DNA of 64,000 nt from Daejeonella sp. (lineage in GTDB: Bacteria; Bacteroidota; Bacteroidia; Sphingobacteriales; Sphingobacteriaceae), in the NCBI RefSeq assembly GCF_030684675.1, contig NZ_JAUXXZ010000064.1, positions 1 through 64,000 on the forward strand, given 5' to 3'. Below the pieces are notes generated by a model. The model saw only the letters and a list, made by a program, of their open reading frames with translations, was not told where the DNA came from and did not search any database. Made by a program: the position numbers and the translations under genes. Positions 16,805 through 51,069 of the stretch are shown here, piece after piece (position 1 is the first letter of the stretch; the number at the start of each line of letters is the position of its first letter).

Positions 16805-16833
16805 TTTATTTAAAGACCCAAATAATTAAAAGA

Positions 16834-18120
16834 ATGCAAAGCTTTTTAAAAACAACAAAGAGCCTGTCGCTTTTATTACTAATCGCCTTTTTTGCGACAA
16901 GTGTTAAGGCTCAGGAAATTGACCTACTGCTCAAGGGCGGACATGTGATCGACGCCAAAAACAAAATTAACGGCAAAATGGATGTGGCCGTTAAAGACGG
17001 TAAAGTTTTTCGTGTAGCAGCGGATATTCCGGCGAGTTCAGCGAAAAAAATAGTCAATGTCAGCGGACTTTATGTAACACCGGGACTACTTGATATTCAC
17101 GGACACGTATTTCACGGTACTGAGAATAATTACTTAAGCAATAGTCTGGATGCTCTTCCACCAGATGGATTCACTTTTCGTGCGGGAGTAACTACTGTTG
17201 TAGATGCCGGTGGTGCGGGATGGAAAAACATTGAATTATTTAGAAAGAACATTGTTGAGCATTCTAAAACCCGCGTACTTGCATTCATGAATATTGTAGG
17301 AGGGGGAATGCGTGGCACCGAGGCCTATGAGCAGGATGAAACCGACATGGATGCCAAACTCACTGGTGCCATTGCACTTAAGAATAAGGATATTGTCGTT
17401 GGAATTAAGCTGGCACATTATATCGGCCACAACTGGAATCCGACAGATAAAGCAGTAGAAGCTGGCAGAATTGCCAGCATTCCGGTGATGGTGGATTTCG
17501 GAAAATCACTTCCTCCCCTTCCGCTTGAAGATTTACTACTAAAACATTTACGCCCGGGCGACATTTTAACCCATGCCTATCGTTACGATCAGGAATTTGA
17601 CAGAAGTGGAAAAATGATTGAGCATAAACAAGCTATTGTTGATGTTAAAACCAAAAAAGTAAAGCCATTTGTGTGGGAAGCCCGCAAAAAAGGCTTGATT
17701 TTCGATGTAGGTCATGGTGGAGGAAGCTTCAACTGGAGCCAGGCGGTTCCTGCAATGGAGCAGGGTTTCCATCCGGATGTTTTAAGTTCTGACCTTCACA
17801 CCGGAAGTATGAACGCAGGTTTCAAAGATATGGCTAACCTTGCCTCCAAATTCCTGGTCTTAGGTATGCCTTTGGCAGATGTAATTGCAGCATCAACCTG
17901 GAATCCTGCCAAAGTAATTCAACGTACCGAATTGGGTAACCTGAGTGTTGGCAGCGAAGCTGACATTGCGGTATTCAGACTCAGAGAAGGCGACTTTGGA
18001 TACATCGATGCAAGCGGAATGGCATTGAGAGGAAAACAAAAACTGGAAGCAGAATTAACTTTACGCAATGGTCGTGTAGTTTGGGACCTGAACGCACTGA
18101 GTGCCCCATTAGCAAAATAA
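16834..18120 (+). CDS. Exported amidohydrolase/deacetylase family metalloenzyme, paralogue 2
   Basis: 428 aa from the ATG at 16834, chosen because it gives a signal peptide (SLLLLIAFFATSVKAQ) and follows a purine-rich stretch; an in-frame ATG at 16744 lies inside the preceding gene. Same architecture as its neighbours: HGHVF metal site, GIKLAHYIGH lysine region, ILTHAY, FDVGHGGGSFNW and SSDLHTGS. Strand 5 reads VMVDFGKS, again Asp where His is expected. It ends three bases before the third paralogue starts, so the three genes form an operon. Confidence 0.87.
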   Translation: MQSFLKTTKSLSLLLLIAFFATSVKAQEIDLLLKGGHVIDAKNKINGKMDVAVKDGKVFRVAADIPASSAKKIVNVSGLYVTPGLLDIHGHVFHGTENNYLSNSLDALPPDGFTFRAGVTTVVDAGGAGWKNIELFRKNIVEHSKTRVLAFMNIVGGGMRGTEAYEQDETDMDAKLTGAIALKNKDIVVGIKLAHYIGHNWNPTDKAVEAGRIASIPVMVDFGKSLPPLPLEDLLLKHLRPGDILTHAYRYDQEFDRSGKMIEHKQAIVDVKTKKVKPFVWEARKKGLIFDVGHGGGSFNWSQAVPAMEQGFHPDVLSSDLHTGSMNAGFKDMANLASKFLVLGMPLADVIAASTWNPAKVIQRTELGNLSVGSEADIAVFRLREGDFGYIDASGMALRGKQKLEAELTLRNGRVVWDLNALSAPLAK

Positions 18121-18122
18121 TA

Positions 18123-19382
18123 ATGAATATGAATAAGTTCATACAAGCAGGCAGATCCGTATTATTCGCGATCTGCCTGTCTGTTTCCGCACAATTTGCA
18201 ATTGCGCAGGAAATCGACATTTTACTGAAAGGCGGACATGTAATTGACGCCAAAAATAAGATAAGTGCGAAAATGGATGTTGCAGTAAGCAATGGCAAAA
18301 TCCTGAGAGTTGCACCAAATATTCCAGTAGCCGGAGCCAAAAAAGTAGTGGATGTAAGCGGGATGTATGTGAGTCCGGGTTTAATCGATATCCATACCCA
18401 TGTTTTCACCGGACCGAATCCTGGTTTCGGGCATGGCTCATCCAGTGTAAAACCCGATGATTTCACTTTTCGTGCCGGGATTACTACTGTGGTAGATGCA
18501 GGAACATCGGGTTATAAAACCTTCCCCCTGTTTAAGGAGCAAATCATCGACCGTTCCCGCACGCGTGTGCTTGCCTATCTGAATGCATTCGCACCGGGGA
18601 TGGTGGGTACAGCTGCAGAACAGGAAAATATGCAGGCCCTGGAAATTGAAAAAGCAGATGAAACGATCAAAAAATATTCGGATAATATTGTCGGAGTAAA
18701 GATTGGACATTATTCAGGCAAGGACTGGAAGCCATTTGATGCTGCCGCTTCATTGGCGCATACCAATAATCGTCCCCTTTTCGTGGAATGCCATATCACT
18801 GAGTTTTCGCTCGAAGATCAACTAAACCACATGAAGGCCGGTGATATTATCACCCATGCCTATGAGAATGTTTCAGAACGTATGCCTGTGGTAGATGAGA
18901 ACGGAAAAGTCCGGCCATTTGTGCTGGATGCCCGCAAAAAGGGAATTTTATTTGATGTGGGCCATGGTGGTGTTGGCTTCTGGTTTAACCAGGCAGTACC
19001 CTCGGTAAAACAAGGCCTTGCTCCCGATACTTTCGGAACCGACATGCACCATAACAGTGTCAATTCGGGCATGAAGGATATGCTGAACCTGATGTCGAAA
19101 TATCTGAACATGGGCATGCAGACAGAAGATATAATTCAGCGGGCAAGCTGGGGAGCCGCTACTGCTATCAAACGCCCCGATCTGGGTAACCTGAGTGTAG
19201 GCTCAGTTGCGGATATTGCTATAATCAAAGTTCTGGATGGCAAATTTGGATTTCTTGATGCTGCCGATTTTAAGCTGGAAGGCAATAAAAAATTTCAGGC
19301 TGAAATGACTATCCGGGCAGGAAGGATTGTTTGGGACTTGAATGGGATGGCTGGGGTACCATGGAGTAAGGACTTGAAATAA
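18123..19382 (+). CDS. Exported amidohydrolase/deacetylase family metalloenzyme, paralogue 3
   Basis: 419 aa from the ATG at 18123 (a second ATG six bases later is also possible). Signal peptide ends FAIAQ. Metal motifs: HTHVF, VGVKIGHYSGK, IITHAY, FDVGHGGVGFW, GTDMHHNS. Strand 5 reads LFVECHITEF, so the usual His is Glu here with a His two residues on, unlike paralogues 1 and 2. All three keep the C-terminal R-x-G-x-IVWDLNG-like strand. A terminator follows at 19405. Confidence 0.87.
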   Translation: MNMNKFIQAGRSVLFAICLSVSAQFAIAQEIDILLKGGHVIDAKNKISAKMDVAVSNGKILRVAPNIPVAGAKKVVDVSGMYVSPGLIDIHTHVFTGPNPGFGHGSSSVKPDDFTFRAGITTVVDAGTSGYKTFPLFKEQIIDRSRTRVLAYLNAFAPGMVGTAAEQENMQALEIEKADETIKKYSDNIVGVKIGHYSGKDWKPFDAAASLAHTNNRPLFVECHITEFSLEDQLNHMKAGDIITHAYENVSERMPVVDENGKVRPFVLDARKKGILFDVGHGGVGFWFNQAVPSVKQGLAPDTFGTDMHHNSVNSGMKDMLNLMSKYLNMGMQTEDIIQRASWGAATAIKRPDLGNLSVGSVADIAIIKVLDGKFGFLDAADFKLEGNKKFQAEMTIRAGRIVWDLNGMAGVPWSKDLK

Positions 19383-37671: not shown

Positions 37672-39441
37672 ATGATACTAAAAATTATTGGCGAGTCTCT
37701 TAAAAAACCCGCTTTATATGCCATTTCCTTATTATTTATCATCAGTATCCTTAGTCTCACTTTATTTAGAAATCCCGGCGGCTTGCCACCTTCAGACCCT
37801 GATAATGGCGGACTAACATTTCCTGATGGTTTTGAAGCGGTAGTAGTTGTTGATAGTTTAGGCCCTGCCCGTCACCTCGCTGTAAACAGCAACGGCGATA
37901 TCTATGTAAAACTCAGATTTTCAACCAGGGGTGGCAATGTGGCTATGCGGGATACTGATAATGATGGGAAGGCTGATATTATCCAGCACTTTGGTAACTA
38001 TAAAGATGTTGGCAGTTTAGCAAATGGAATGAGGATTCATAAGGGATACCTTTATTACAGCTCTTCGCTAGCTATTTACAGAAGCAAGCTGACTCCAGGC
38101 AAACTGATTCCTGATAGTCCGATGGAAACTGTTCTGACCGATGACCACGGTCATGGCGCACATTGGCATATTACCAAACCTGTGTCATTTGATGATAAAG
38201 GTTTTATGTATGTTCCATTCGGAACTCCGTCCAATAACTGCATGGATCTGGCAAATACTCCGGGAGGAAAACCTGGGCAACCGGGAATAACTCCTTGTCC
38301 TGAACTGGTGCAGCATGGCGGTATCTGGCGTTTTGATGCAAATAAAATCGGTCTGACTCAAAAAGACGGAACATTATTCGCTACCGGATTACGCAGTATC
38401 GTGGCTATGGACTGGAATAAAGCAGATAAGAGTCTGTATGTAGTGCAGCATGGCCGGGATAATCTTCATCGTCTCTTTCCTGAGCTTTACACCCCATGGG
38501 AAAGTGCTGTACTACCTTCAGAAGAATTCCTGAAAATTAAGGAAGGTGATGATGCGGGATGGCCATATTATTATTATGATCAGATCCAGAAGAAAAAATT
38601 AATGACTCCTGAATATGGAGGGGATGGAAAAAAAGAAGGAAAAGGCCGGGAACTGGCGCAGCCATTAATCGGTTTTCCTGGTCACTGGGCACCAAATGAT
38701 TTATACTTTTACCAGGGAAATCAGTTTCCTGCGCGTTATAAAAATGGGGCATTTATCGCTTTCCATGGATCAACAAATCGTGCTCCCTATCCACAATCAG
38801 GCTATTTTGTAGCTTTCGTGCCATTCAAAAATGGGGTACCTTCGGGCGAATGGGAGGTGTTTGCAGACGGATTCGCCGGTGTGGACCCGATTGTTAATGT
38901 AAGGGATGCTAAGCTGCGTCCAATGGGCATTGCTGAAGGCCCCGACGGCTCATTATATATCAGTGAAACGGAGAAGGGACGTATCTGGCGGGTGATGTTT
39001 AAAGGTAATAAAAAGACCTTTGGAAATGCTCAACTCTCAACGATGGAAAAACATAAGCTACTTTCTCATATTCGTACACCCGATAAAATTAAAGACGATT
39101 TGGAAAAAGGAAAAATTAAACCGGAAGCTGCACTTTATAATACCTATTGCTCAGCATGCCACCAAAATGATGGTAAGGGCGATGGTAACCGCTTCCCTCC
39201 CCTCGGAGGAACTGATTGGGTAAGTGGCGATAAAACGAAGCTTCTAAATGTTGTATTAAAGGGTTTAAACGGAGAAATTGTTGTTAATGGCAAACCATAC
39301 AATGGTCTGATGCCTGCCCATAATTTCCTGAAAGATGAAGAAGTTGCCAATATCCTGACTTATATCCGTTCCAATTTTGGGAACAGTGCAAGCGCAGTAA
39401 GTGTGCAGGAAGTGACTGAATTCAGAAAGTCTGATAAGTAA
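37672..39441 (+). CDS. PQQ-dependent sugar dehydrogenase fused to cytochrome c
   Basis: 589 aa. An N-terminal membrane segment or uncleaved signal (YAISLLFIISILSLTLF) leads into a six-blade propeller of the soluble-glucose/sorbosone dehydrogenase type: LPPSDPDNGGLTFPDGFEA start, GHGAHWHITKP, RFDANKIG, LRSIVAMDWN, GPDGSLYISETEKGRIWRV. Residues about 480-575 are a class I cytochrome c with CSACH and the axial Met in NGLMPAH. The fusion would pass electrons straight from the alcohol or sugar to the respiratory chain. A similar protein is encoded at 53034. Confidence 0.9.
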   Translation: MILKIIGESLKKPALYAISLLFIISILSLTLFRNPGGLPPSDPDNGGLTFPDGFEAVVVVDSLGPARHLAVNSNGDIYVKLRFSTRGGNVAMRDTDNDGKADIIQHFGNYKDVGSLANGMRIHKGYLYYSSSLAIYRSKLTPGKLIPDSPMETVLTDDHGHGAHWHITKPVSFDDKGFMYVPFGTPSNNCMDLANTPGGKPGQPGITPCPELVQHGGIWRFDANKIGLTQKDGTLFATGLRSIVAMDWNKADKSLYVVQHGRDNLHRLFPELYTPWESAVLPSEEFLKIKEGDDAGWPYYYYDQIQKKKLMTPEYGGDGKKEGKGRELAQPLIGFPGHWAPNDLYFYQGNQFPARYKNGAFIAFHGSTNRAPYPQSGYFVAFVPFKNGVPSGEWEVFADGFAGVDPIVNVRDAKLRPMGIAEGPDGSLYISETEKGRIWRVMFKGNKKTFGNAQLSTMEKHKLLSHIRTPDKIKDDLEKGKIKPEAALYNTYCSACHQNDGKGDGNRFPPLGGTDWVSGDKTKLLNVVLKGLNGEIVVNGKPYNGLMPAHNFLKDEEVANILTYIRSNFGNSASAVSVQEVTEFRKSDK

Positions 39442-39570: not shown

Positions 39571-41244
39571 ATGAAACGTAGAGACGTAATTAAAGGTCTG
39601 ACGATGCTGCCATTAGCCGGCGGAATTGTTGGAAGTGCTCAGGCTGCCATCAATGCTGAAGGCACAGGCATGATTGGAATGCTGGGTGGAGAAAATAGCG
39701 CTGCAGGGCCAATGAAATTCGGGCCTGAAGTTTACCGATCATTGGGAGTTGAACCGGTAATCAATTGCCGCGGTACATTCACAATCATTGGTGCATCTAC
39801 TTTAGTTCCTGAGGCTAAAGAAGCGATGTATAATGCACAATCAAATTATGTTCAGCTTGATGAACTGGCAATGGGTGTTGGAAAAAGACTTGCCGAATTA
39901 TCGGGTGCTGAATGGGGTGTTGTTTCATGTGGTTGCGCAGGAGGTATGAAAATTACTACCATGGCTGCAGTAACCGGTGGAAATCCTGAAAAACTGGTTC
40001 GTGTTCCTGATCTTACCGGATTTGAAAAAGATGAGGTAATTATCCCGCGCAGATCACGTAACACTTATGACCATGCAATCAGAAATGTGGGTGTAAAAAT
40101 AATCACAGTAGATACTCAGGAAGAACTTGAAGCTGCTATGAACCCAAGAACGGCAATGATCTACATGATGCCATCCACAAAACCGGGAGATACCGGACCA
40201 TTGTCTGTACATGCAATCTCAAAAGCTGCCAAGCTAAAAGGAATTCCGGTACTTGTTGATGCAGCTGCAGAAGCCCTGACCTTAAATCCAAACGTTCACC
40301 TTGCTGATGGTGCAACAGTAGTTGCTTACAGTGGTGGAAAAGCCATTCGCGGTCCGCAGAGTGCCGGTTTATTATTGGGTGATAAAAAACTTCTTATGGC
40401 TGCTTGGCAGTCAAGTGCTCCGCACCATGGTGCCGGACGCGACAATAAAGTTGGTAAAGAAGAGCAAATAGGTATGCTTGCTGCCGTTGAAGCATGGACC
40501 AAACGGAATCATGCACAGGAAGAATTAACCTGGACAGGCTATCTGGAAACCATTTCAAAGCGCGTTTCAGCGATTAGTGGTGTTACTACCAGCATACGTC
40601 AGCCTACAGGTCTGGATAACCGTACTCCAACCCTTACTATTTCATGGGATCCGGCTAAATTTAATGCCAGCGGACAGGAAATGGCTACTTACCTTTCAAC
40701 AACCAAGCCGCGTATTGCACTGAGTGCAGGTGGTGGTCGCCGTGGTACTCCAGCATCCGAAAATTTAACTTCAATTTCTGTAGCAGCATTTATGATGCAG
40801 CCGGGCGATGATAAGATTGTCGCCGATCGTATCTTCGACGCACTGAACATGAAACGTCCTGCAACTCCTGAGATGAAAGCTCCTTCAGCTGATCTGAAAG
40901 GACGCTGGGATGTGACCGTAGAGTACTTCAATGAAGTGAGTAAACATACTTTCAGTATCGAAGAGCAGGATTCAAACTGGCTTAAAGGTTCTCACAAAAG
41001 CGCCTTTACAACCAATGAACTTGATGGAACGATTGATGGAAATGCAGTGATATTCAGAAGTGCCTCAAGAATGCTCGCTGATAACGTTCCATTTACTTTC
41101 TCCGGAACAGTTAATGGTGATACGATGTCAGGAAATATTCACCACGGTGAGTATCTGACCTCAAAGTTCACAGCTAAGAAAGTTATTCAGCCTAGCAGCC
41201 GTCAGAGAATTAACGTTCCGGTTGGCCCGCCTTTATCAAGCTGA
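39571..41244 (+). CDS. Tat-exported SelA-fold PLP enzyme with extra C-terminal domain
   Basis: 557 aa. Twin-arginine-type signal MKRRDVIKGLTMLPLAGGIV. Residues about 55-435 resemble the SelA/D-glucosaminate-6-phosphate ammonia-lyase group: INCRGTFTIIGASTLVPEAKEAM, YDHAIRNVGV, PVLVDAAAE (Asp230, pyridine N) and VVAYSGGKAIRGPQSAG with the Schiff-base Lys257. Residues about 448-545 form an added beta-rich domain (KGRWDVTVEYFNE, LDGTIDGNAVIF). Export of a PLP enzyme is unusual and agrees with Tat transport of folded proteins. Likely an alpha,beta-eliminase or ammonia lyase. A RidA protein with nearly the same signal is encoded at 45126. Confidence 0.87.
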   Translation: MKRRDVIKGLTMLPLAGGIVGSAQAAINAEGTGMIGMLGGENSAAGPMKFGPEVYRSLGVEPVINCRGTFTIIGASTLVPEAKEAMYNAQSNYVQLDELAMGVGKRLAELSGAEWGVVSCGCAGGMKITTMAAVTGGNPEKLVRVPDLTGFEKDEVIIPRRSRNTYDHAIRNVGVKIITVDTQEELEAAMNPRTAMIYMMPSTKPGDTGPLSVHAISKAAKLKGIPVLVDAAAEALTLNPNVHLADGATVVAYSGGKAIRGPQSAGLLLGDKKLLMAAWQSSAPHHGAGRDNKVGKEEQIGMLAAVEAWTKRNHAQEELTWTGYLETISKRVSAISGVTTSIRQPTGLDNRTPTLTISWDPAKFNASGQEMATYLSTTKPRIALSAGGGRRGTPASENLTSISVAAFMMQPGDDKIVADRIFDALNMKRPATPEMKAPSADLKGRWDVTVEYFNEVSKHTFSIEEQDSNWLKGSHKSAFTTNELDGTIDGNAVIFRSASRMLADNVPFTFSGTVNGDTMSGNIHHGEYLTSKFTAKKVIQPSSRQRINVPVGPPLSS

Positions 41245-41257
41245 TCAGTTTAACATT

Positions 41258-41302
41258 AAATCAAAAGGCCCCGTTTCAAATTGATGCGGAGCCTTTTGAT
41301 TT
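41258..41302. terminator. Bidirectional terminator between PLP gene and kinase gene
   Basis: Twelve-pair inverted repeat with outer arms AAATCAAAAGGC (41258-41269) and GCCTTTTGATTT (41291-41302), extended by CCG/CGG inside. It separates two convergent genes and ends in the kinase stop codon. Confidence 0.85.
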
Positions 41303-43079
41303 ATATTCTATTTTTTCTTAGTGAAATCTCCTTAAGTTTTGCATAAAGCTCTTTAGGATTGTAAGGTTTCGACAAATAATCATTCATCCCCGCTTCACGG
41401 ATTTTATCACTCAGATTATTGGACACCGATGCCGTTAAGGCAATGATTGGCACAGTAGATTTTTCCTTATCCGATAGTTCCCGTATTTTCATCGTAGTTT
41501 CATAACCATCAAGTAATGGCATGTGAATATCCATTAAGATCAGATCATAATTATTGGCAGTAACTTTTACTAAAGCTTCATATCCATCTCTGGCAAAATC
41601 CGGAATATTACTCCATTTCTGGAAAATCTTTTTAAGCAGCAAACTGTTTACCGGATTATCCTCAACCACAAGTACTCTCAAACCATTTAGGTCGAAAATT
41701 TGCTCCTTGCTACTGCTATCATTGTCCAATGCCTGGTTATTACGTTTAAAGCTGATATCAAACCAGAATTTCGACCCTTTACCCTCTTCGCTTTCGAGAT
41801 GTACAGAACTTTCAAACAGAGTTAGTAAACGCTTAACTATTGCAAGCCCAAGACCGGTTCCTCCATAATTACGTGTCGTACTTGTTGAAGCCTGCATAAA
41901 AGGCTCAAAAATGGCTTCCATTTTTTCTGCATTAATACCAATTCCTGTATCTGTGATCGAAAAACGAACACTGATTTTATCAGCATCCTTATCAAGAATC
42001 TTTATTTGAATCTTTACGCTACCACTTGAAGTGAACTTGATTGCATTACCTGTCAGATTAAATAAAATCTGACTAATACGAGTGGGATCAGTGGAAATCG
42101 GAATTTGCTCAATTTCTTCATCTATTTCAAGTAGTAGTTGAAGACCCTTTTCCTTTGCCTGTATCCTCAAACCTGAACAAATATTATGAATTAAAGAATG
42201 AAGATTGACTCCAATCGATTCCAAATATAGTTTTTCAGAACCTAGCTTATTAAAATCCAGAATATCATTAATTAATGTATGAAGACTTGCCGCAGAAAAA
42301 TTAAGAATTTTAAGATTTTCTTCCTGCTCCGGACTCGTAAGTTCATCACTAAGCAGCTCAGCCATCCCAATAACAGAATTTAACGGGGTTCTTAACTCAT
42401 GCGACATTGTGGAAAGAAAGTCAGACTTCGACTGAGCAGCAATATTTGCTTCTTTCACTGCGATCAGAAGTTTCTCATTCAGCAATTCCTTCTCTTTCAC
42501 ATTTCGGATCAGTGCCTGATAAAACAAATAATGTCCCAGTATCATTGTGACAAAATTCAGGAAGACCATTATCTCATAAGCAGGCGATCCCAAACCTTCG
42601 GTACTATTGTGAAGATTCTGGAGATCCCCATTTATAATCATAAACAGGATAACAGGAATAATCGCCAATATGGAATAAAATACACCAAAACCTCTGTTCA
42701 ATAAGTAAAATCCACTTAAAATTATCATGAACATAAATTGCATTGCCATTATATTAATGGTTTTTGCAAGTCCAAAAAGCACAAAAATTACGATCACTAA
42801 GCCCATTAAAATCATGAAATGGGAAATCAGAACTGAATATCTTTTATGGCTCAGTAATAATTTAGTCAGAAATGTATAGACGATCAGTAAGATAAGTGCA
42901 AGTTTCAATTGCGGAAGCTGATTACTATGATAGGCAAGAGGAATAACTATCAATACCTTCAATATTGATAAAATCAGAAAGGTATACAGGATTTTAATCC
43001 GGGATTGCTCAAGAGGATCTGGAATAGTAGATAACAGATTCTTTAATGACCAATTGAAGAATTTAGGTTTTTTAGACAT
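41301..43079 (-). CDS. Hybrid sensor histidine kinase/response regulator
   Basis: 592 aa. Six membrane helices (about 28-205) replace a periplasmic sensor, suggesting it senses a membrane state or ligand. A short coiled coil leads to HisKA with phosphoacceptor STMSHELRTPLNSV (His about 228), HATPase with GTGLGLAIVKRL, and a receiver domain with VLVVEDNPVNSLLL and acceptor Asp in DLILMDIHMPLLDGYE (about 520). No output domain and no cognate DNA-binding regulator is adjacent on this strand; the Crp-like gene is divergent. Confidence 0.93.
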   Translation of the reverse strand: MSKKPKFFNWSLKNLLSTIPDPLEQSRIKILYTFLILSILKVLIVIPLAYHSNQLPQLKLALILLIVYTFLTKLLLSHKRYSVLISHFMILMGLVIVIFVLFGLAKTINIMAMQFMFMIILSGFYLLNRGFGVFYSILAIIPVILFMIINGDLQNLHNSTEGLGSPAYEIMVFLNFVTMILGHYLFYQALIRNVKEKELLNEKLLIAVKEANIAAQSKSDFLSTMSHELRTPLNSVIGMAELLSDELTSPEQEENLKILNFSAASLHTLINDILDFNKLGSEKLYLESIGVNLHSLIHNICSGLRIQAKEKGLQLLLEIDEEIEQIPISTDPTRISQILFNLTGNAIKFTSSGSVKIQIKILDKDADKISVRFSITDTGIGINAEKMEAIFEPFMQASTSTTRNYGGTGLGLAIVKRLLTLFESSVHLESEEGKGSKFWFDISFKRNNQALDNDSSSKEQIFDLNGLRVLVVEDNPVNSLLLKKIFQKWSNIPDFARDGYEALVKVTANNYDLILMDIHMPLLDGYETTMKIRELSDKEKSTVPIIALTASVSNNLSDKIREAGMNDYLSKPYNPKELYAKLKEISLRKNRI

Positions 43080-43224
43080 GGTTTTTCAGGTCACTAAAAA
43101 TACTAATATATGCCAACAATTCACTTTAATCCGTAATTTCTTTCGAAAACATAGTTTGATTTGGATTAGATTTCCGTTTAATTAATCTAAAACGCCATCT
43201 TTGAAATAAATAATCTGCAATTAA

Positions 43225-43800
43225 ATGTTCGAAGTCCTGTTTTCAAAAGTTGAAGAGAAAATTAAGCTTAGTGATGTTGAAAAAGACATTTGCAAAAGTC
43301 TCTTCAGCCCTAAAAAGCTAAGAAAACGACAATATATTTTACAGCAGGATGATATCTGTAAAAATCTTGTTTTCGTTGAAAAGGGAATATTACGCTCCTA
43401 CAGTGTGGATAGTAAAGGAAATGAGCACATCCTTCAGTTTGCCCCTGAAGGTTGGTGGATATCAGATGTTTACAGTTTTTTGACCGGTGAGGCAGCGGTA
43501 TACAATATTGAAGCTATCGAGGATTCCGAACTGCTGCTAATCTCTAAATCCTCGCTGGATGAATTATATGAAAGAGTACCCAAGTTTGAACGCTATTTCA
43601 GACTTCTGAGTCAGGCAAACATGGTTGCAACACACCGGCGGCTTACCGCATCATTAAGTGACAGTGCCGACGAAAAATATCTGAGACTCCTTTCTGCCTA
43701 CCCTAATATTGTGGCAAGGGTCCCACAGCATATGATCGCTTCATATCTTGGCATAACACCCGAGACCCTGAGCAGAGTCAGAAAACGAATTGTGTCCTGA
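43225..43800 (+). CDS. Crp/Fnr family transcriptional regulator
   Basis: 191 aa. Cyclic-nucleotide-type sensor barrel with KRQYILQQDDICKNLVFVEKGILRSY, FAPEGWWISDVYSFLTGEAAVYNIEAIEDSELL, then a shortened HTH ending IASYLGITPETLSRVRKRI. This is the small Bacteroidota Crp type; it lacks the Fnr cysteine pattern, so no iron-sulfur cluster is expected, and the ligand is unknown. It is convergent with the yceI-like gene across a strong terminator and divergent from the hybrid kinase. Confidence 0.92.
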   Translation: MFEVLFSKVEEKIKLSDVEKDICKSLFSPKKLRKRQYILQQDDICKNLVFVEKGILRSYSVDSKGNEHILQFAPEGWWISDVYSFLTGEAAVYNIEAIEDSELLLISKSSLDELYERVPKFERYFRLLSQANMVATHRRLTASLSDSADEKYLRLLSAYPNIVARVPQHMIASYLGITPETLSRVRKRIVS

Positions 43801-43829
43801 GAGCTGAATTGATATATGATTCATGAAAA

Positions 43830-43865
43830 GAAAATGGCTGCCTGATTGATCAGGCAGCCATTTTC
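43830..43865. terminator. Bidirectional rho-independent terminator
   Basis: Perfect 16-bp stem with GGCTGCCTGA/TCAGGCAGCC core, AAAA and TTTT flanks, and a TTGA loop, between the convergent Crp/Fnr and YceI genes. Confidence 0.95.
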
Positions 43866-43887
43866 ATCATTAAAGATTTATAAATAA

Positions 43888-44463
43888 TTATTTTGCTGCA
43901 AACTCACCATCTGCCTTAATCTCAACTTCATCACTGATCATAGGAGCTTTGAAATTCGGACCAATGTTAAAGTCTGAACGCTTTAATAAACCGGTTAACT
44001 GAAAACCGGCAACATTGGTTTTATTCATCGGATGTACGATTGTACCACGATAAAGAAGGTTCATACTTACTGCTTTAGTAATTCCATGCATCGTCAGATT
44101 GCCATTCAGTGTATATTTATTCTTAGCTGCAGGCTTTATTGATGTGCTTTTGAAAGTAATTTTATCGAACTTCTCTGCATCAAAAAAGTCAGGGCTTTTC
44201 AGATGATTGTCTCTCATTTCGATTTCAGTGTCAATTGATTTTACATCAGCAGTTAATTCAAAAACTCCATCACTAAAATCTGCTTTTGTAGAAGTAATTG
44301 TTGCATCAAAATTCCTGAACAGTCCTTCAACATCCGAAATTCCGAGGTGTACAACTGAGAAGGTTAATTTGGAATGTGCTTTGTCTGACTTCCAGCTTGT
44401 TTGCGCCTGAACCGTAGCCTGGCTGATCAATATTACAAGTGCAATAAAAATTGTTTTTTTCAT
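43888..44463 (-). CDS. Exported YceI family protein
   Basis: 191 aa with signal peptide ending QATVQAQ. YceI lipocalin-like barrel: WKSDKAHSKLTFSVVHLGISDVEGLFRNFDATI, then FDAEKFDKITFKS, LNGNLTMHGITKAV and FQLTGLLKRSDFNIG. Family members bind polyisoprenoid or amphiphilic compounds in the periplasm. The gene for a small NAD(P)-binding-like protein ends 32 nt upstream, so they may be co-transcribed. Sometimes under control of Crp-like regulators such as the neighbour. Confidence 0.93.
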   Translation of the reverse strand: MKKTIFIALVILISQATVQAQTSWKSDKAHSKLTFSVVHLGISDVEGLFRNFDATITSTKADFSDGVFELTADVKSIDTEIEMRDNHLKSPDFFDAEKFDKITFKSTSIKPAAKNKYTLNGNLTMHGITKAVSMNLLYRGTIVHPMNKTNVAGFQLTGLLKRSDFNIGPNFKAPMISDEVEIKADGEFAAK

Positions 44464-44495
44464 TTTTGTTTGTTTATGGTTTATAATTAATTTGA

Positions 44496-44990
44496 TTATG
44501 TTAATTCAAAGGGAGCATGTACAAACCCTGCCTGTTTGAGTAATGCTTTAGTTTCATCAAGCGCATCCTGGTCTCTTCCGGAAATAGAAAACAACATCTG
44601 TCCCCCATTGCTTTCAATAAAACTCAGATTGATCAGTCTGGAATAAGGCAGCAGCGATTCAAGTTCAATTTCATCACTCAATGAACCCTCTCCTCTTAAT
44701 TCTGTTATATTTAGAACGATCTTTTTAGTTACGAATTCACGGATAGAGTTAACAAGTTTTAGCTGATTTTCTGCAGTAACATGCATCACAATAATATCTG
44801 CTTCCCAGCCTGTCTGAGCAGAACAATTCAGAACTTGAATATCTGCATCAGGGTAATCTAAGAACAAAGATGGACAATCATCGATCTCTTCAGATAGCAC
44901 TAAAATCCTGAAAGGGTGTGCTGCCAGCTTTTCAGCCAGGACTGAACCATATGTTCTGTTTACTCCAAATACAGCTATACTTTTAACCAT
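44496..44990 (-). CDS. Small Rossmann-fold protein, F420-reductase-like
   Basis: 164 aa. It begins KSIAVFGVNRTYGSVLAEKLAA, a Rossmann beta-alpha-beta with an altered glycine pattern, then a strand ADIIVMHVTAENQLKLV and GGQMLFSISGRDQDALDETKALLKQAGF, the end of NADPH-dependent F420 reductase-like or pyrroline-reductase-like N-terminal domains. It lacks the C-terminal dimer domain of full reductases. Cofactor binding looks possible; function not assigned. Confidence 0.6.
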   Translation of the reverse strand: MVKSIAVFGVNRTYGSVLAEKLAAHPFRILVLSEEIDDCPSLFLDYPDADIQVLNCSAQTGWEADIIVMHVTAENQLKLVNSIREFVTKKIVLNITELRGEGSLSDEIELESLLPYSRLINLSFIESNGGQMLFSISGRDQDALDETKALLKQAGFVHAPFELT

Positions 44991-45125
44991 TCCGGCTCAA
45001 ATTTCTATGCACAAAATTAGAGTCTGAAAAATGTTCAGCCAATGATTTCGGTTAAGAAATAGCATTGATTTAAATCAATAGAATGTAGAGAAAAGGATTC
45101 CCAAGCAAATAAAATAGCGATAAGC

Positions 45126-45617
45126 CTAGTCGATATAAGCGATACAATCGATCTGAACCAGAATACCGTCTCTGCCCATATGCTCAGGGCTACAACCAGT
45201 ATAAGAACGCACTGGCTTAGGATCAGGAAAGTATTCCCCGTAAACCTCATTAAGCGCTGCAATGTTCTTATTTGGTTCGGCAAGCGACATATGCACCTTT
45301 AAAACATTTCCCATATTAGTACCTGCTTTTTCCAGAAGGGTTCTCATATGCTCCAACGCACTTCTGATCTGCACCTGTATATCACCAGGTTCTTTTCTTC
45401 TGTCGGCATACCAGCCACCAACCCCAGAGATAAATACCAGATGTCCTGATCGGATGCAAGCGGATAATGGACTTGTGCTTGGATAAGGACTTGGGATTGC
45501 CACTTTTTTAGGGCTCCAATCTGATTTTTGTACCGATTCAGCTTCAGCTGTTTTTGTCCCTAAAGCACCCGCTAATGGAAGAATGGTAAGACTTTTTAAA
45601 ATTTCTCTTCTTTTCAT
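45126..45617 (-). CDS. Tat-exported RidA family protein
   Basis: 163 aa. Signal MKRREILKSLTILPLAGALG with twin arginine, very like the one on the PLP enzyme at 39571. The rest is RidA/YjgF: PSTSPLSACIRSGHLVFISGVGG, then FPDPKPVRSYTGC with the conserved active-site Arg and VQIDCIAYI, where the usual C-terminal Glu is Asp. RidA hydrolyses 2-aminoacrylate and related imines formed by PLP enzymes, normally in the cytoplasm. Last gene of the AGE-MFS-FAD-BNR-RidA run. Confidence 0.9.
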   Translation of the reverse strand: MKRREILKSLTILPLAGALGTKTAEAESVQKSDWSPKKVAIPSPYPSTSPLSACIRSGHLVFISGVGGWYADRRKEPGDIQVQIRSALEHMRTLLEKAGTNMGNVLKVHMSLAEPNKNIAALNEVYGEYFPDPKPVRSYTGCSPEHMGRDGILVQIDCIAYID

Positions 45618-45683: not shown

Positions 45684-46718
45684 TCAGTTGTTTTCAATAA
45701 CAAGATACTTAATGTTTTTCCGATCAAAGGTGTACGAAATATGCACTCTTCCATCACTGCTTTGAATGATCGCAGGATAGCTGTATTCCTCTTTTTTGCC
45801 GTCTTCAAGGAACATTATATCTTTCCAGCTCTTACCATCCGAGGACTGAGCTAAATTCAATTTAAACCTGCCATTAAACCATTCCTTACCCGGGATCAGT
45901 GGATTGTAAACGATAAGCTGAAAGCCACTTTTTAAAGTAACCGCATCAGTTCCGGAGTTTGGATTGAGTAAATCCGTACGTTTCATTTTACTCCATGTAA
46001 GTCCATGATCATCTGACCAGGATTCTATCACATTACCTTGCTTACTTCTGCAAAGGATCTGAAGCCGGCCATCAGGATAAGTCAGGATACTGGGTTGTAT
46101 TACCCCAAATTCAGTTTCAGGATCAACTGGTATATTCTGCCATGTTTTACCCTGATCCGTTGATCGTTCGATATGAACTTTCCAGTTTTCCATAGTCTCA
46201 GTGCTGGAAGGTGAAAGAATAGTGCCATCAATAAGCTGAATCGGTTTATTTTTTATCGGACCAAGAATTCCTTCTGGTAAACGAACAGCTTCCGACCATG
46301 TTTTACCCTGATCAAGAGATGTTTTGTACATGCCCCACCAATCCCGCGGATTTGGTCCGGCCTTGTAAAACAAGAAAATCTTATTCTCTGAATTTTTGAA
46401 AAACACGGGATTCCAAAGCGGGAAAGTTCCTCCTGTACCAAAATCCCCATTTGCAACTTCAACAGGAAAAGTCCATTTCCCATTTCGATTTACTGAAGTC
46501 CAGATTTTCACATCCTTATTCCCTTCATGAGTACCCCCAAACCAGGCAGCCAAAATCTCACCATTCGCGGTTTCCAACAAGGTAGAAGCATGACATTGTG
46601 CAAATGGCGCATCCTGAAATATCAATTCCTCCTTAATTTTTACAAATGAATTTTGGGCAGATAATAAATCAGGCACCAGTATAAATATAAAAAATACAGC
46701 TAACCTCAAATTTTTCAT
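45684..46718 (-). CDS. Exported BNR-repeat hydrolase-like protein (BNR_2)
   Basis: 344 aa with signal peptide ending LLSAQ. Sialidase-superfamily propeller of the BNR_2 group: FAQCHASTLLETANGEILAAWFGG, EGNKDVKIW, Asp-box-like SLDQGKTWS, STDQGKTWQ, SDDHGLTWS. It lacks the RIP motif and arginine triad order of GH33 sialidases, so it is probably not a classic sialidase. Related proteins occur in gene clusters for acidic or amino sugars. It is 144 nt downstream of the FAD enzyme gene. Confidence 0.85.
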   Translation of the reverse strand: MKNLRLAVFFIFILVPDLLSAQNSFVKIKEELIFQDAPFAQCHASTLLETANGEILAAWFGGTHEGNKDVKIWTSVNRNGKWTFPVEVANGDFGTGGTFPLWNPVFFKNSENKIFLFYKAGPNPRDWWGMYKTSLDQGKTWSEAVRLPEGILGPIKNKPIQLIDGTILSPSSTETMENWKVHIERSTDQGKTWQNIPVDPETEFGVIQPSILTYPDGRLQILCRSKQGNVIESWSDDHGLTWSKMKRTDLLNPNSGTDAVTLKSGFQLIVYNPLIPGKEWFNGRFKLNLAQSSDGKSWKDIMFLEDGKKEEYSYPAIIQSSDGRVHISYTFDRKNIKYLVIENN

Positions 46719-46862: not shown

Positions 46863-48575
46863 CTACCTCCACTTCAACTCCACCCCCTGCTTCCCAATAA
46901 AGTCCTGAAACTCCTCCAGCAATTGCTTTCCTTCCCTGACTTTCTGTGGGATCACCTGCTTTTTCAAAGAATAGCTAACTAATAAGCCAACTGCTTCGCC
47001 TATACTCCATTCAACAGGATGCAAACGATAACAGCCATTCGTAATATGGGTTGTTCCGATATTTTTATTGGCTGGCAAAAGATTTTCCATCCGAACCGGC
47101 AATAAAGAGCCTAATGGGATCTGAAATGGAAGCGATGCAAAATCGATATAATTATTGCCACGACTGCTTGGATGAAGATCAATATGATAATACCCAATGC
47201 CTACACTATCATAAAAATCAGCTGCTTTTTTCCCTGCCTCTGCTCCTGCTACCTGAATCCGATTATCCTGGCCAACATGCTCTTCCAAAACAGTAAATAA
47301 AGCCTTTATACGTCTTGATTCACGGATATACGGATATTTAGCCATTCCATCTTCAGTTCCCATAATATCCTTTCTCAATCGAAGTCCGGGCCATCCCTGC
47401 TTTCCATCCGGACGCAGAGCTTCAGTTTGAAGCCAGTGAAACAAGGATAGACTAAGCTGTTTCGCTCGTCCCAGGTGATGATCAAATTCCTTTTGAGATA
47501 CACCCACCAGGTTGCCCAGGGTATAATCATTCTGAGGCCAGTTTACTGTACAGATATCTCCCTTGAATGCCCCTGGCATGAAATTATCCTTTGCCAGAAT
47601 CCGGCGATAATTCCATAGGTTAAGATTTGGAGGGGTCGGACTTCCATCCGGGTTAAATCCAAGTGTTTTCTTCTCGAGTGTTTTGGGATTTGAGTAATTC
47701 AGATCAAGTAATTTACCTGACCATGCCGGGCTCATTTTCGGAACCAGGTTACGCCAAAAATCATATTCAGCTGGTTTTTCTGCAACATTATTAGATCCTG
47801 GAACATAATCCATCGCAAAACATACCGTAAAGGCCTGTTGGTTATCCGGATCGGCCTTATCCGGAGCATGTAGCTCTCTGGTCTCGTTGCGGGATTCCGT
47901 TCCCATTACAAATTCAGTACCTGTCATCGGGAGCAACTCGCCGGTTTCGGTAGCATCTACAAAATATGTTCCGCTAAGTACATAGGAACGTCCTGTTCTG
48001 AGGCTTTCTACTTTTAAAGCCTTCACCTTATTACCTGAAAATTCTGCAGAACGTACTTTATGTTCAATAAGCAAAATCAGTTTACCCGAACTGATGAATG
48101 GTGCCAGCATCTCATTTAGAACCGCAAGCGATACTCTTGGCTCGTGGCAAAGAGCTGAAACCATCGCATTCCCTGGATTCAGATATTGCAGGGACTTAGC
48201 CGCGTCTGTGATTGGATAGTTCTTTTTATAATATTCTCTGACACCATTTCGGTAATTACGATAAGATTGAGGTGCTCCATGGGTTTCGATCCAGGCGTGC
48301 TCATCAGGAGGTACACCCTGAGAAGTTAACTGCCCCCCAATCCAGTCAGTTTCTTCGGTCATAATTACATCCAGTCCATTGCGCAAAGCGGCTAAAGCGG
48401 CTGCACAGCCCCCGATCCCTCCACCTGCAATTACTAATGTTGCACTAAGTTCAGAGGCATTTACATCCTTCTGTAAATTAGAAGCAAATACACCTGTTGG
48501 AAAGGCTGAAAGTGCACCTGAAGCTAAGCCTGTTGCCCCTAAGCCTGTCAGACCTATAAAATTCCTTCTTTTCAT
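46863..48575 (-). CDS. Tat-exported FAD-dependent oxidoreductase
   Basis: 570 aa. Twin-arginine-type signal MKRRNFIGLTGLGATGLASG. Dinucleotide site LVIAGGGIGGCAAALAALRNGLDVIMTEE (about 46-74), then DWIGGQLTSQGVPPDEH and YFVDATETGELLPMTGTEFVMG, all of the FAD_oxidored (PF12831) family, and a C-terminal THITNGCYRLHPVEWSIGEAVG. Predicted periplasmic oxidation of a sugar or sugar acid. The start overlaps the stop of the permease gene by four bases, so the two are coupled. Confidence 0.88.
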   Translation of the reverse strand: MKRRNFIGLTGLGATGLASGALSAFPTGVFASNLQKDVNASELSATLVIAGGGIGGCAAALAALRNGLDVIMTEETDWIGGQLTSQGVPPDEHAWIETHGAPQSYRNYRNGVREYYKKNYPITDAAKSLQYLNPGNAMVSALCHEPRVSLAVLNEMLAPFISSGKLILLIEHKVRSAEFSGNKVKALKVESLRTGRSYVLSGTYFVDATETGELLPMTGTEFVMGTESRNETRELHAPDKADPDNQQAFTVCFAMDYVPGSNNVAEKPAEYDFWRNLVPKMSPAWSGKLLDLNYSNPKTLEKKTLGFNPDGSPTPPNLNLWNYRRILAKDNFMPGAFKGDICTVNWPQNDYTLGNLVGVSQKEFDHHLGRAKQLSLSLFHWLQTEALRPDGKQGWPGLRLRKDIMGTEDGMAKYPYIRESRRIKALFTVLEEHVGQDNRIQVAGAEAGKKAADFYDSVGIGYYHIDLHPSSRGNNYIDFASLPFQIPLGSLLPVRMENLLPANKNIGTTHITNGCYRLHPVEWSIGEAVGLLVSYSLKKQVIPQKVREGKQLLEEFQDFIGKQGVELKWR

Positions 48576-49819
48576 AAAACCTCAGCTTTTGACTTATAGC
48601 CGTTAACACCAAAAAATACGATATATAAATAACAAAGGACAGGAATCATAAATGCCACTGCCCATGTTGAATGATCTTTAACATAACCTTGTGAAAAGGA
48701 TACTATAGCCCCGCCTACAATCGCTGTAGATAAGATACCTGAGGCCTTCGTGGTATAATTGCCCAGCCCCTGGACTGAAAGTGAAAAGATAATAGCAAAC
48801 ATAACCGAGTTAAAGAGTCCCACTCCTATCATTGACCAGATAGCGAATGCTCCCGAAGTGCTTACGGAAAGAACGATCAGCAGAATTGCAGCAGCTGCAC
48901 AAACAGTCAGAATAAATGAAGGTCTTATTGTTTTAAGCAGGTAGGAACCGATCAAACGGCCGGCAAGCATTCCTCCCCAATAATAAGAAACATAAGAATT
49001 TGCATTCTCTACACCAACACTTAAGGTATCCGCTATGTAATTGGTCAAAAACGTTCCGACTGATACTTCCGCACCAACATAAGCGAATATTGCCCATGCC
49101 CCAAAGTTCAGATTGCGAAATGAAAAAATACTTACTCTTTCTTCAGGACTAGCCTGAAAACTCCCGGCACCGGTACTGATTTTGGGAAGTTTTAAATTAT
49201 AAACCACCAAAGCAATGCAGATCAGTAAAGCAGCAATTCCCAGATAAGGATATTTCACTGCATCACTTGATGTACCTGATTCCTGTAGTTTTGACAGAAT
49301 ATAATGTGCGCCGAAAATTGGCGCAACTGTTGTCCCGATAGAACCAACTGCCTGAATAAGAGTTAGTCTGGAAGAAGCTGTTTTTGCAGGCCCCAATGCA
49401 GTAATATATGGGTTAGACGCAACCTGTAAAACCACAATCCCAATAGCTAAAACAAATAAAGCCGCCAGAAATAAATAATAAAGATGCATATCTGCGGCAG
49501 GATAAAATAATAAAGCCCCGATAGCAGCAATCGCAAAGCCGAGCACCATACCGTTTTTATAACCAATCTTCTCTACGATCATCCCAGCCGGGAAGGACAT
49601 GAGTCCGTAGGTGAGGAAGAAATAAAACTGAACCAAAGATGAATCGGCATAGCTAAGGGTAAATCCCTCTTTAAAAAATGGCACAAGAGTATCATTCAGA
49701 CAGGTTATAAAGCCGTTCATAAAATACAATACTGCCAGGGATATGAGGGCAGGCATGTAATTCTGTCCAGAATTCTCCTGTTCAGAATTTACGGTGCTAT
49801 GTAAAGGTATATTTGCCAT
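48572..49819 (-). CDS. FucP-type sugar MFS transporter
   Basis: 415 aa, twelve membrane helices. FHS-family marks: FMNGFITCLNDTLVPFFKEGF in helix 1, FLTYGLMSFPAGMIVEKIGYKNGMVLGF, and QVASNPYITALGPAKTASSRLTLIQAVGSIGTTVAP. Relatives carry fucose, glucose/galactose or N-acetylglucosamine with protons. With the AGE-type epimerase next door the likely substrate is an N-acetylated or acidic sugar. Shares a 4-nt overlap with the FAD enzyme gene and lies 71 nt downstream of the epimerase gene. Confidence 0.92.
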   Translation of the reverse strand: MANIPLHSTVNSEQENSGQNYMPALISLAVLYFMNGFITCLNDTLVPFFKEGFTLSYADSSLVQFYFFLTYGLMSFPAGMIVEKIGYKNGMVLGFAIAAIGALLFYPAADMHLYYLFLAALFVLAIGIVVLQVASNPYITALGPAKTASSRLTLIQAVGSIGTTVAPIFGAHYILSKLQESGTSSDAVKYPYLGIAALLICIALVVYNLKLPKISTGAGSFQASPEERVSIFSFRNLNFGAWAIFAYVGAEVSVGTFLTNYIADTLSVGVENANSYVSYYWGGMLAGRLIGSYLLKTIRPSFILTVCAAAAILLIVLSVSTSGAFAIWSMIGVGLFNSVMFAIIFSLSVQGLGNYTTKASGILSTAIVGGAIVSFSQGYVKDHSTWAVAFMIPVLCYLYIVFFGVNGYKSKAEVL

Positions 49820-49890: not shown

Positions 49891-51069
49891 TTATTTTGAA
49901 AACTTTCCCTCAATTTTTTCAAGGGTCTTCCAGCACTGGTATAAGCCTCTTGGAACATGGAAACATCCTTTCCATTTACCACCCTTTAAAGGAACCAATA
50001 CTTCTCCTCTACGGTTCAAATAACCATACCACTCCCCCATATTTGCATCTGGAAAATGCTTCCAGGTATATTGATGTACCTTTTCAAACCAATCCCAGCA
50101 ACGCTGATCTCCCGTATGGTAATATCCCTTTAGGAGAGTTATCAGAGTTTCCATATGTACCCACCATAGTTTCTGATCCCATTCCAGTTGCTGCGGAGGG
50201 TGACCTTTAACATCCATAAAGTATAAAATACCTTCGAACTCCTTATCCCAGCCGTATTCAAGAATATTGATGCTTATATCTACCGCCTTTTTGATCAGTG
50301 CCTGATCATTTCTGCGCTCTGCGATATCCATGATGAACCACATGGACTCCAGGCCGTGACCCGGATTAAGCAAACGGCCTTCAAATGAGTCGGAGAAGGA
50401 GCCATCCGGTTTCACATTTTCCAGAATAATTCCAAGGTCTTCCTGATAAAATACCTCCATTACCGAATGGATACCATCATTGATAGTCTTTTCAATCAGA
50501 TCTCGTTCCAGAAGATGCTCCAATTCCAACACCAGGTTACAAAGGATCATAGGTAATGAAAAACCCTGAAGCGGGCGGGTTCCCGGGAAGGCCTTATTGT
50601 ATTTTCCTTTTGGATCATCCCGCTTTCTGAGAATATTATTAAAGGTATTTACGGCAAGTTGTGCATATTCCTCAGTGCCTGTAGCTTTGAAAAGCTGTGC
50701 AAAGGCCATAGCAGCAAAACAATCAGAAAATATATTGTATGGCTGTATCAATGGCAGGCCTTCCCGGGTGAGTGAAAAGTAGAAGTTGCCCTCATTGTCT
50801 TTCCCGTGCTTCTTCATAAATTCAGCGCCCTGAATCGCGAAATCCAGCCATTCCTTTTTTTGTTCTACCTGGTTGTATAGCATACTAAAACACCATACCT
50901 GCCTGAATTGAAGCCAGACAAATTTATCTGTATCAAAAACCTTCCCTTCCCGGTCAAGACAAGTAAAATAGCCCCCGAATTCCTTATCTCCGGAATTCTT
51001 AAGCCAAAATGGAACTACATCGTTCAAAAGGTTGTCTTTGTACTTTTCAGCGTACTGTTTATAATTCAT
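49891..51069 (-). CDS. AGE family epimerase (N-acylglucosamine 2-epimerase-like)
   Basis: 392 aa, single (alpha/alpha)6-barrel. Seen: FGGYFTCLDREGKVFDTDKFVWLQFRQVWCFSMLYN, FYFSLTREGLPL, NPGHGLESMWFIMDIAERR, KLWWVHMETLITLLKGY, and the C-terminal WKGCFHVPRGLYQCWKTLE. The two histidines (in PGHGLE and FHVPR) are the acid/base pair of the family. Reaction probably interconverts GlcNAc and ManNAc or a similar aldose pair. First gene of the operon; sialic-acid lyase and kinase are not visible in the window. Confidence 0.93.
   Translation of the reverse strand: MNYKQYAEKYKDNLLNDVVPFWLKNSGDKEFGGYFTCLDREGKVFDTDKFVWLQFRQVWCFSMLYNQVEQKKEWLDFAIQGAEFMKKHGKDNEGNFYFSLTREGLPLIQPYNIFSDCFAAMAFAQLFKATGTEEYAQLAVNTFNNILRKRDDPKGKYNKAFPGTRPLQGFSLPMILCNLVLELEHLLERDLIEKTINDGIHSVMEVFYQEDLGIILENVKPDGSFSDSFEGRLLNPGHGLESMWFIMDIAERRNDQALIKKAVDISINILEYGWDKEFEGILYFMDVKGHPPQQLEWDQKLWWVHMETLITLLKGYYHTGDQRCWDWFEKVHQYTWKHFPDANMGEWYGYLNRRGEVLVPLKGGKWKGCFHVPRGLYQCWKTLEKIEGKFSK

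Follow-up and report, generated by a model that had tools for sequence, protein, structure and literature searches.

The window analysed here is a stretch of 64,000 nucleotides from Daejeonella sp. (RefSeq assembly GCF_030684675.1, contig NZ_JAUXXZ010000064.1, positions 1 to 64,000) and encodes a pyridoxal 5'-phosphate (PLP) enzyme and a RidA-family protein that both begin with twin-arginine translocation (Tat) leaders (Table 1). On comparison with their relatives, it appears that many Bacteroidota degrade amino-sugar acids beyond the inner membrane by means of an exported PLP enzyme and an exported RidA. Both open reading frames (ORFs) exist exactly where the initial annotation, which was made from the sequence alone, had placed them. 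The two genes are separated by 3.9 kb and four ORFs, namely a sensor-kinase-like and a Crp-like ORF (both labels being a reading of the sequence by eye), a YceI-like ORF and an ORF of 164 aa. Because they lie on opposite strands in separate gene runs, a single operon is ruled out and the neighbourhood is a convergent one. The pair that the initial annotation had supposed is therefore not co-transcribed.

The annotation had also described near-identical twin-arginine leaders on the two proteins, and this is confirmed by leader scores and by conservation of the arginine pair (RR). Leaders were called by motif and conservation, and the 18 aa from the RR were compared with BLOSUM62 after alignment on RR. 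When paired with the 18 PLP-family leaders encoded in this genome, the window RidA leader scored 38 to 76, compared with -1 to 23 for 12 other RR leaders from the window and the fetched regions, with no overlap between the two sets (Mann-Whitney p = 2.6e-6). Scores of 6 to 13 were obtained against three leaders of RidA-2, as the clade of Tat-leader RidA from PLP clusters is called here; the clade of the window RidA is referred to as RidA-w. Recent copying of leader DNA between the two window genes was rejected, since only 42 of 66 bases are identical. The RR is kept in all 18 PLP paralogs of the genome and was seen, as matched, in 48 of the 54 family members of alignment A3. Five of the six exceptions are acidobacterial matches that start downstream of the leader, and RR is present in the upstream frame of all 15 acidobacterial loci read, including those five, within a leader that is otherwise different; the sixth exception (locus L105) carries RKR.

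Both the PLP enzyme and the window RidA are predicted from these leaders to be exported by Tat. A single copy of TatC is encoded in the genome, and the leaders of the RidA proteins in its PLP clusters are, as judged by eye, of the Tat, Sec or lipoprotein type, a variety that would fit selection for export as such. A chance meeting of Tat proteins that are unrelated and share only a generic MKRR start is very improbable: the Tat-type leaders of the GFO/IDH and flavin adenine dinucleotide (FAD) proteins of the window also begin MKRR and the two genes are on opposite strands, but the leader class is set apart from the 12 other RR leaders, the neighbourhood is conserved and the two families are co-distributed in 6 of 61 genomes, as described below. 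Slightly less credible still is that the leaders are unused and both proteins are cytoplasmic. RK replaces RR in one tandem RidA of genome G028, in one of the two RidA leaders of G226 and in the RidA leader of G258, but the RR is kept in the PLP family across phyla, TatC is present and the cluster RidA proteins bear three types of leader.

Leaders of the PLP class were also observed on other proteins of this genome (G000). An M19 membrane-dipeptidase-family protein (G000 C4:51501-52757, locus L018) has such a leader and adjoins a PLP gene, and an M19 gene also precedes the PLP gene in L066, L071 and L107. A 432-aa Tat-type protein with a leader of this class (G000 C62:22208-23506, L020) adjoins SusD. 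At the thresholds used, it had no match among Pfam and NCBIfam models or the sequences of the PDB, and similar proteins are encoded near PLP genes in L044 and L080.

Table 1. Positions of the window features discussed in the text and the basis of each assignment
Feature	Position	Strand	Basis or remark
PLP enzyme with Tat leader, DGL/SelA-like fold type I, long form with C-terminal beta barrel	39571..41244	+	ORF of 557 aa, starts MKRRDVIKGLTMLPLAGG
Twin-arginine leader of PLP enzyme, approximate end	39571..39648	+	leader comparison; RR in 18/18 paralogs
Asp230 codon (VDAAA), predicted PLP ring-nitrogen contact	40258..40260	+	conserved 54/54
Lys257 codon (SGGK), predicted PLP Schiff-base lysine	40339..40341	+	conserved 54/54; aligned to SGAK lysine of 7lc0
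C-terminal eight-stranded barrel-like domain of PLP enzyme	40900..41181	+	AlphaFold models, Foldseek
RidA-family protein with Tat leader, RidA-w clade	45126..45617	-	ORF of 163 aa, starts MKRREILKSLTILPLAGA; PF01042 61.2 bits, cut-off 27.3
Twin-arginine leader of RidA, PLP-family leader class, approximate end	45540..45617	-	leader comparison
Arg137 codon of RidA, conserved Rid-family arginine	45207..45209	-	9/9; role from PMC4433059
Secreted sorbosone-dehydrogenase-like beta propeller with cytochrome c	37672..39441	+	129 bp upstream of PLP gene; also neighbour in several relatives
Secreted BNR_2 (sialidase-like) protein, RidA gene run	45684..46718	-	domain search
PF12831 FAD oxidoreductase with Tat leader, possible rival imine source for window RidA	46863..48575	-	adjoins RidA-w also in L163, L164; another PF12831 protein in L161
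MFS transporter, RidA gene run	48572..49819	-	domain search
N-acylglucosamine 2-epimerase (AGE), RidA gene run	49891..51069	-	NF052547 723.7 bits, cut-off 600
Three tandem cog3964-type amidohydrolase genes, Sec-like leaders, secreted	15524..19382	+	nearest PLP gene about 20 kb off

Distribution and gene clusters of the PLP family

The genome encodes 18 PLP paralogs, all with the leader, of which 10 are long (533-560 aa, with the C-terminal domain) and eight are short (403-417 aa). At least 572 relatives were confirmed in one scan of genome contigs. The loci of 79 relatives were kept; by their titles these are mostly from Bacteroidota and Acidobacteria, with two from Balneolaceae, and they include Daejeonella, Pedobacter, Dyadobacter and Bryobacterales.

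Co-occurrence of the Tat-tagged PLP and RidA genes across genomes had been set beforehand as a check on the proposed pair, and it was found in both samples searched. The order was sampled with 61 genomes, among them the query genome; six of these have the PLP family, and the same six encode a leader-bearing RidA (model start position 1-2, at least 140 bits) and full-length cog3964-type amidohydrolases. The latter term denotes secreted amidohydrolases like C62_20869; we take cog3964 to be the name of this group, which is presumably linked to N-acetyl-D-amino acid hydrolysis. The other 55 genomes gave no RidA match at E <= 1e-8 starting before model position 7, as judged by match positions only. 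Without the query genome, a leader-bearing RidA accompanies PLP in 5 of 5 genomes compared to 0 of 55, with a RidA model that was built from this genome and with six positive genomes that are not independent because they come from three genera. RR leaders on RidA were read in the loci of the five other PLP-bearing genomes of the order. The phylum sample comprised 247 genomes, with at most five PLP candidates scored per genome; five of them (G000, G182, G190, G226 and G258) encode PLP, and in each of these an exported-type RidA is part of a PLP cluster. G258 has another PLP gene, on C53, for which the stretch examined contains no RidA. At E <= 1e-37, the RidA search of the phylum sample overlooked the exported RidA that the loci of G226 and G258 were found to encode, so its absence counts were not used. 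The exported PLP and RidA pair of the initial annotation thus stands as a conserved pairing, as seen in co-distribution and operons, while the RidA of the window itself may serve an FAD enzyme.

Several operons place RidA at 10-58 bp from PLP. The order in G013 and G032 is sigma-FecR-SusC-SusD-RidA-PLP-cog3964-RraA with 29 bp from RidA to PLP, and 10 bp separate the two genes in G017. G190 exhibits the order RidA3-PLP-RidA-RraA-SBF-cog3964 with 22 bp on either side of PLP, where RidA3 refers to relatives of C62_16404, a protein matching PF14588 and PF01042; other RidA3 are labelled by similarity. One cluster in G182 and G226 contains cytochrome c/GSDH, SGL, cog3964, RraA, SBF and two RidA types. 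RidA and PLP of G016 are located in one run about 2 kb apart, and in G028 the RidA-2 genes are about 17 kb and about 14 kb from the nearest PLP genes, with a RidA3 less than 1 kb from another PLP.

The suggestion that amidohydrolases belong with the PLP genes is borne out in this genome, in which the zones extending 10 kb to either side of the PLP genes make up 6.1% of the sequence but contain 18 of the 24 full-length cog3964-type genes. Of the RidA genes matched by the RidA model, five of the seven exported ones and none of the three others are also found within 10 kb; these proximity tests assume independent genes, an assumption that tandem copies violate, and RidA3 is not among the RidA genes counted. 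An RraA-like aldolase was rejected as a constant member of the clusters, as it is near PLP at 12 of the 79 loci and in two of six cases in this genome. The end of one PLP cluster (G000 C62:10614-13956, L020) encodes a gamma-glutamyltranspeptidase and an M81 (microcystinase-like) protein.

Predicted active site and substrate

The closest solved proteins to the PLP enzyme are DGL (7lc0) and Cap15 (8t7j), followed by SelA. DGL was matched by phmmer (1.3e-34) and by profile (209 bits), and its structure was ranked first by Foldseek (TM 0.85 by target length) and, in a structure comparison, scored Z 36.6. TIGR01437/DgaE are the best NCBIfam models for the protein, and the SelA models remained below their cut-offs (TIGR00474, 20.2 against 267.9 bits; PF03841, 16.6 against 22.8 bits). 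The generic eliminase proposed at first gives way to an enzyme nearest to DGL, an amino-sugar-acid ammonia-lyase.

The SG[AG]K lysine and the VDAAA aspartate are invariant in the 54 aligned family members, and from knowledge of the fold type the aspartate is presumably the contact to the PLP ring nitrogen. The DGL report describes His-163 as protonating C-3 and the H163A variant as retaining a near full steady-state rate while releasing the enamine; its authors reason that His-163 is kept to avoid cytotoxic enamine release and name RidA as an enzyme degrading such compounds (PMC9529869). The His162-His163 loop of DGL has HH in none of the 54 PLP-family members and any His in seven. Since the PLP-family lyases are without the His proton donor by which DGL holds the enamine until protonation, RidA would be needed, and by analogy with the H163A variant the family enzymes may release the enamine and leave RidA to finish the reaction. 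Another residue may serve as proton donor in place of His-163, for example His285 or His286, which are present in 46 and 45 of the 54 members respectively, mostly of the long form. Of the DGL arginines near the 6-phosphate, Arg301 and Arg346 align in the profile alignment to Thr and Leu of the family consensus, and Arg332 aligns to a weakly conserved Arg. The lack of Arg301 and Arg346 fits the expectation for an unphosphorylated periplasmic substrate.

The extra beta-rich C-terminal domain of about 100 aa that had been noticed in the PLP protein corresponds to residues 444-537, which form eight strands in AlphaFold models of mostly high confidence, and is present in 10 of the 18 paralogs. Its best Foldseek match is the quinohemoprotein amine dehydrogenase 1jmx (E 3e-4). 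A named fold for this barrel was dropped, as 1jmx is the one match below E 0.001 and the rest are mostly lipid-binding-protein-like barrels above 0.001.

Gene content of the PLP clusters was used to predict the substrate. Both cog3964-type proteins tested exceed the cut-off of 371 for the NF006689 deacetylase model (401.3 and 432.8 bits), and lactonases, gluconolactonase-like SGL, GSDH/cytochrome c and PIG-L occur in the clusters. The order SusC-SusD-PLP-cog3964-DgoK-KDPG aldolase-galactonate-type MFS-PLP is found in L099 and L103; L098 exhibits PLP-cog3964-DgoK-KDPG aldolase-MFS-PLP and no SusC/SusD, and G028 has a similar set with SusC/SusD. DgoK (PF05035, cut-off 25) is matched with 172.8 bits in L099 and 196.2 bits in G028, and the KDPG-type aldolase (TIGR01182, cut-off 156) with 175.3 bits in L099 and 177.2 bits in L118. 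The best model for the MFS proteins of L099 and L118 is TIGR00893 at 250.8 and 245.8 bits, under its cut-off of 395. In the Daejeonella genome, the single DgoK match is followed by Eda and an MFS gene behind the PLP-cog3964-cog3964 cluster of C40, and the C4 cluster contains a KDPG-type aldolase and a glycerate kinase. The lactonases, aldolases, DgoK and galactonate-type transporter therefore point to 2-amino-2-deoxy aldonates as the substrates and 2-keto-3-deoxy acids as the products, and the sugar may vary from one of the 18 paralogs to another. The genes that separate cog3964 from DgoK in C40 encode an SGSH_C-domain sulfatase and a Tat-type protein of the enolase superfamily (MR_MLE; G000 C40:93490-96492, L028), a hint at sulfated amino-sugar substrates.

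An alternative in which the family either uses other substrates (for example D-amino acids or beta-hydroxy amino acids derived from their N-acyl forms) or is an O2-dependent PLP oxidase like Cap15 is unlikely. Genes for a Tat M19 dipeptidase, M20 and D-aminoacylase-like proteins lie in or near PLP clusters, and the 18 paralogs suggest varied substrates. Cap15, which is equally close in fold, is reported to act on a beta-hydroxy amino acid (PMC7497351), and the exported PvdN is classed as a decarboxylating PLP oxygenase. Against this, a 2-keto-3-deoxy sugar acid agrees with the presence of DgoK, the KDPG aldolase, the galactonate-type MFS, the lactonases and the RraA aldolase.

Proposed pathway and known systems

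On balance, it is probable that the products of the PLP genes are DGL/SelA-like lyases that are exported by Tat and act on amino-sugar acids in the periplasm together with an exported RidA. SusC/SusD would import the glycan acid, a pyrroloquinoline quinone (PQQ)/cytochrome c dehydrogenase with a lactonase could form the aldonate from the sugar, and the secreted cog3964-type amidohydrolase would strip the N-acyl group. The PLP lyase, a step that would be performed in the window by the PLP enzyme, would then remove ammonia from the 2-amino-2-deoxy aldonic acid in the periplasm through elimination of the 3-hydroxyl to give the 2-keto-3-deoxy acid, and the exported RidA would hydrolyse the enamine or imine set free by the lyase. 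Cleavage of the 2-keto-3-deoxy acid by the secreted RraA-like aldolase could be followed by uptake (SBF), or the acid could be imported by the galactonate-type MFS, phosphorylated by DgoK and cleaved by the KDPG-type aldolase. A full amino-sugar-acid Entner-Doudoroff branch in the periplasm, in which a lyase without its own proton donor hands the free enamine to an exported RidA that is a regular pathway enzyme and not damage control, is a tentative extension of this proposal that falls somewhat short of probable.

Several observations weigh against the proposed pathway. The loci of relatives (flanks up to 10 kb) contain RidA of either type in 25 of 79 and cog3964-type genes in 42 of 79; the 34 loci with full flanks contain cog3964 in 15, RidA in eight and RidA3 in three. 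The long-form PLP genes of Dyadobacter have no partner gene in their flanks, and those of Acidobacteria have none except for one cog3964 (L058). For three of six acidobacterial genomes (G312-G314), no RidA among the matches listed starts before model position 9, and for the other three the region of the best leader-start RidA match is without a PLP gene, the RidA ORF of G311 being hidden by the filter. RraA-like genes near PLP number only two of six in this genome. The DgoK branch is not universal, because DgoK is present in only three of the 10 PLP-bearing genomes searched, and that of G016 is on another contig than PLP. With respect to the lyase itself, the DGL-specific models remained below their cut-offs (TIGR01437, 148.5 against 385.3 bits; NF047797, 144.3 against 600 bits), Cap15 is structurally as close as DGL (Z 37.4, rmsd 2.6, 353 aligned), and Arg-226 of DGL, near the carboxylate, corresponds to Asp271 in the window protein at a position that varies in the paralogs. 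The window RidA has Gln where 2dyy has Glu, and tandem pairs of its clade occur with no PLP nearby (C4 of this genome, G028 and G322/G324). Each of the nine Dyadobacter genomes and the one Chryseolinea genome searched has a leader-type RidA elsewhere, in regions with a short PLP gene and nearly always cog3964 together with a lactonase or GSDH/cytochrome c; for three of the nine Dyadobacter (L147, L149 and L150) this RidA is a search match whose ORF was not displayed by the ORF filter.

The proposed lyase resembles DGL/DgaE in its fold, its PLP lysine and aspartate, a likely elimination to a 2-keto-3-deoxy sugar acid and an aldolase downstream. The DGL substrate is phosphorylated by the phosphotransferase system (PTS) on cell entry (PMC9529869), and the His162-His163 loop is strictly conserved in DGL. 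The PLP family differs by the Tat leader, the RidA and deacetylase partners, an often present C-terminal barrel and the lack of two of three phosphate-site Arg. Cap15 belongs to the same fold subgroup but is an O2-dependent decarboxylating enzyme of capuramycin biosynthesis and, to our knowledge, is not exported. The chitin-oxidation pathway of Pseudoalteromonas (OngB/OngC/OngD) likewise combines a deacetylase, a PLP-type deaminase and the RidA-family OngD in one cluster and yields KDG from GlcNAc1A (PMC9537276). OngD is needed for growth on GlcNAc1A, with a role that was not known to the authors, and OngB (D-aminoacylase-like) and OngC (a putative D-amino acid deaminase) are predicted to be cytoplasmic, in contrast to the leader-bearing proteins here. 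PvdN and PtaA of Pseudomonas are also PLP enzymes that are exported folded by Tat, but they serve in pyoverdine tailoring, and no RidA partner is named in the accessible part of the report (PMC6206403).

These precedents qualify the earlier remark that periplasmic PLP chemistry of this kind is poorly described. The literature search gave no exported RidA or such module among the matches listed, which is weak evidence of absence given that most subscription journals were outside the search. As judged from sequence, the module appears to be a new variant in which the chemistry of known cytoplasmic pathways would be moved outside the inner membrane and expanded. Within cells, RidA is known to protect against enamine damage, and here it resembles a dedicated, repeated and co-inherited partner of an exported PLP enzyme, for which the lack of the DGL-type His-163 would be a direct chemical reason. 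The proposal, if true, would give a function to a large, multi-copy and unassigned family and would add a way to process, in the periplasm, amino-sugar acids of the kind that oxidative cleavage of chitin leaves behind.

Partner of the window RidA

The window RidA shares the domain and the conserved Arg of the RidA family (PF01042), with Arg137, the catalytic/conserved residue, present in 9 of 9 aligned proteins. It missed the cut-off of the tighter model TIGR00004 (49.3 against 106.25 bits), and it differs by its exported-type leader and by Gln at the site that we take to be Glu120 in E. coli/TdcF numbering. Replacement of Glu120 in RidA of S. enterica is reported to have little effect (PMC4433059).

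The gene run of the window RidA is ordered AGE, MFS, FAD oxidoreductase, BNR, RidA, the 164-aa ORF (no Pfam match) and YceI-like. A rather less probable explanation for this RidA is that it serves the Tat-exported PF12831 FAD oxidoreductase of this run, by acting on flavin-made imines, and not the PLP enzyme, with the Tat genes being neighbours for some other reason; the pairing of PLP with other RidA clades would be left untouched. RidA is reported to hydrolyse imines from FAD amine oxidases (PMC4433059). Tandem RidA-w genes are located behind another FAD oxidoreductase in L161 (PF12831, 383.7 bits) and L162, and the tandems of the genomes G322/G324 lie behind an FAD oxidoreductase. For the tandems of this genome and of G028, as well as the single RidA-w copies of G317, the 7-10 kb examined on each side contain no PLP gene. 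Opposed to an FAD partner, less than 4 kb separates RidA-w from the orthologous PLP gene in eight of nine loci outside the window (L033-L038, L062 and L163), and less than 100 bp in L037 and L038. The leader of the window RidA also falls in the PLP-family class, and PF12831 proteins are not known to us as amine oxidases. The ninth locus, in G028, has no RidA-w by the orthologous PLP gene, and a RidA-2 triplet is about 14 kb away. Because the window RidA is in a separate gene run and its clade also accompanies FAD oxidoreductases, its direct partner may be either the PLP or the FAD enzyme: it probably clears exported imines from the PLP enzyme and/or the FAD oxidoreductase of its own run.

A protein matching the neutral ceramidase family is encoded beside the RidA tandem and FAD oxidoreductase of L161, with a counterpart in L162, and G324 has a ceramidase-like gene at its tandem. 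In the genomes G311-G316, from which L047, L058, L069, L073, L080 and L101 derive, single frames of about 400-516 aa contain two to three consecutive RidA matches (for example G311 C4:166588-167661, 408 aa) and resemble single-chain RidA trimers.

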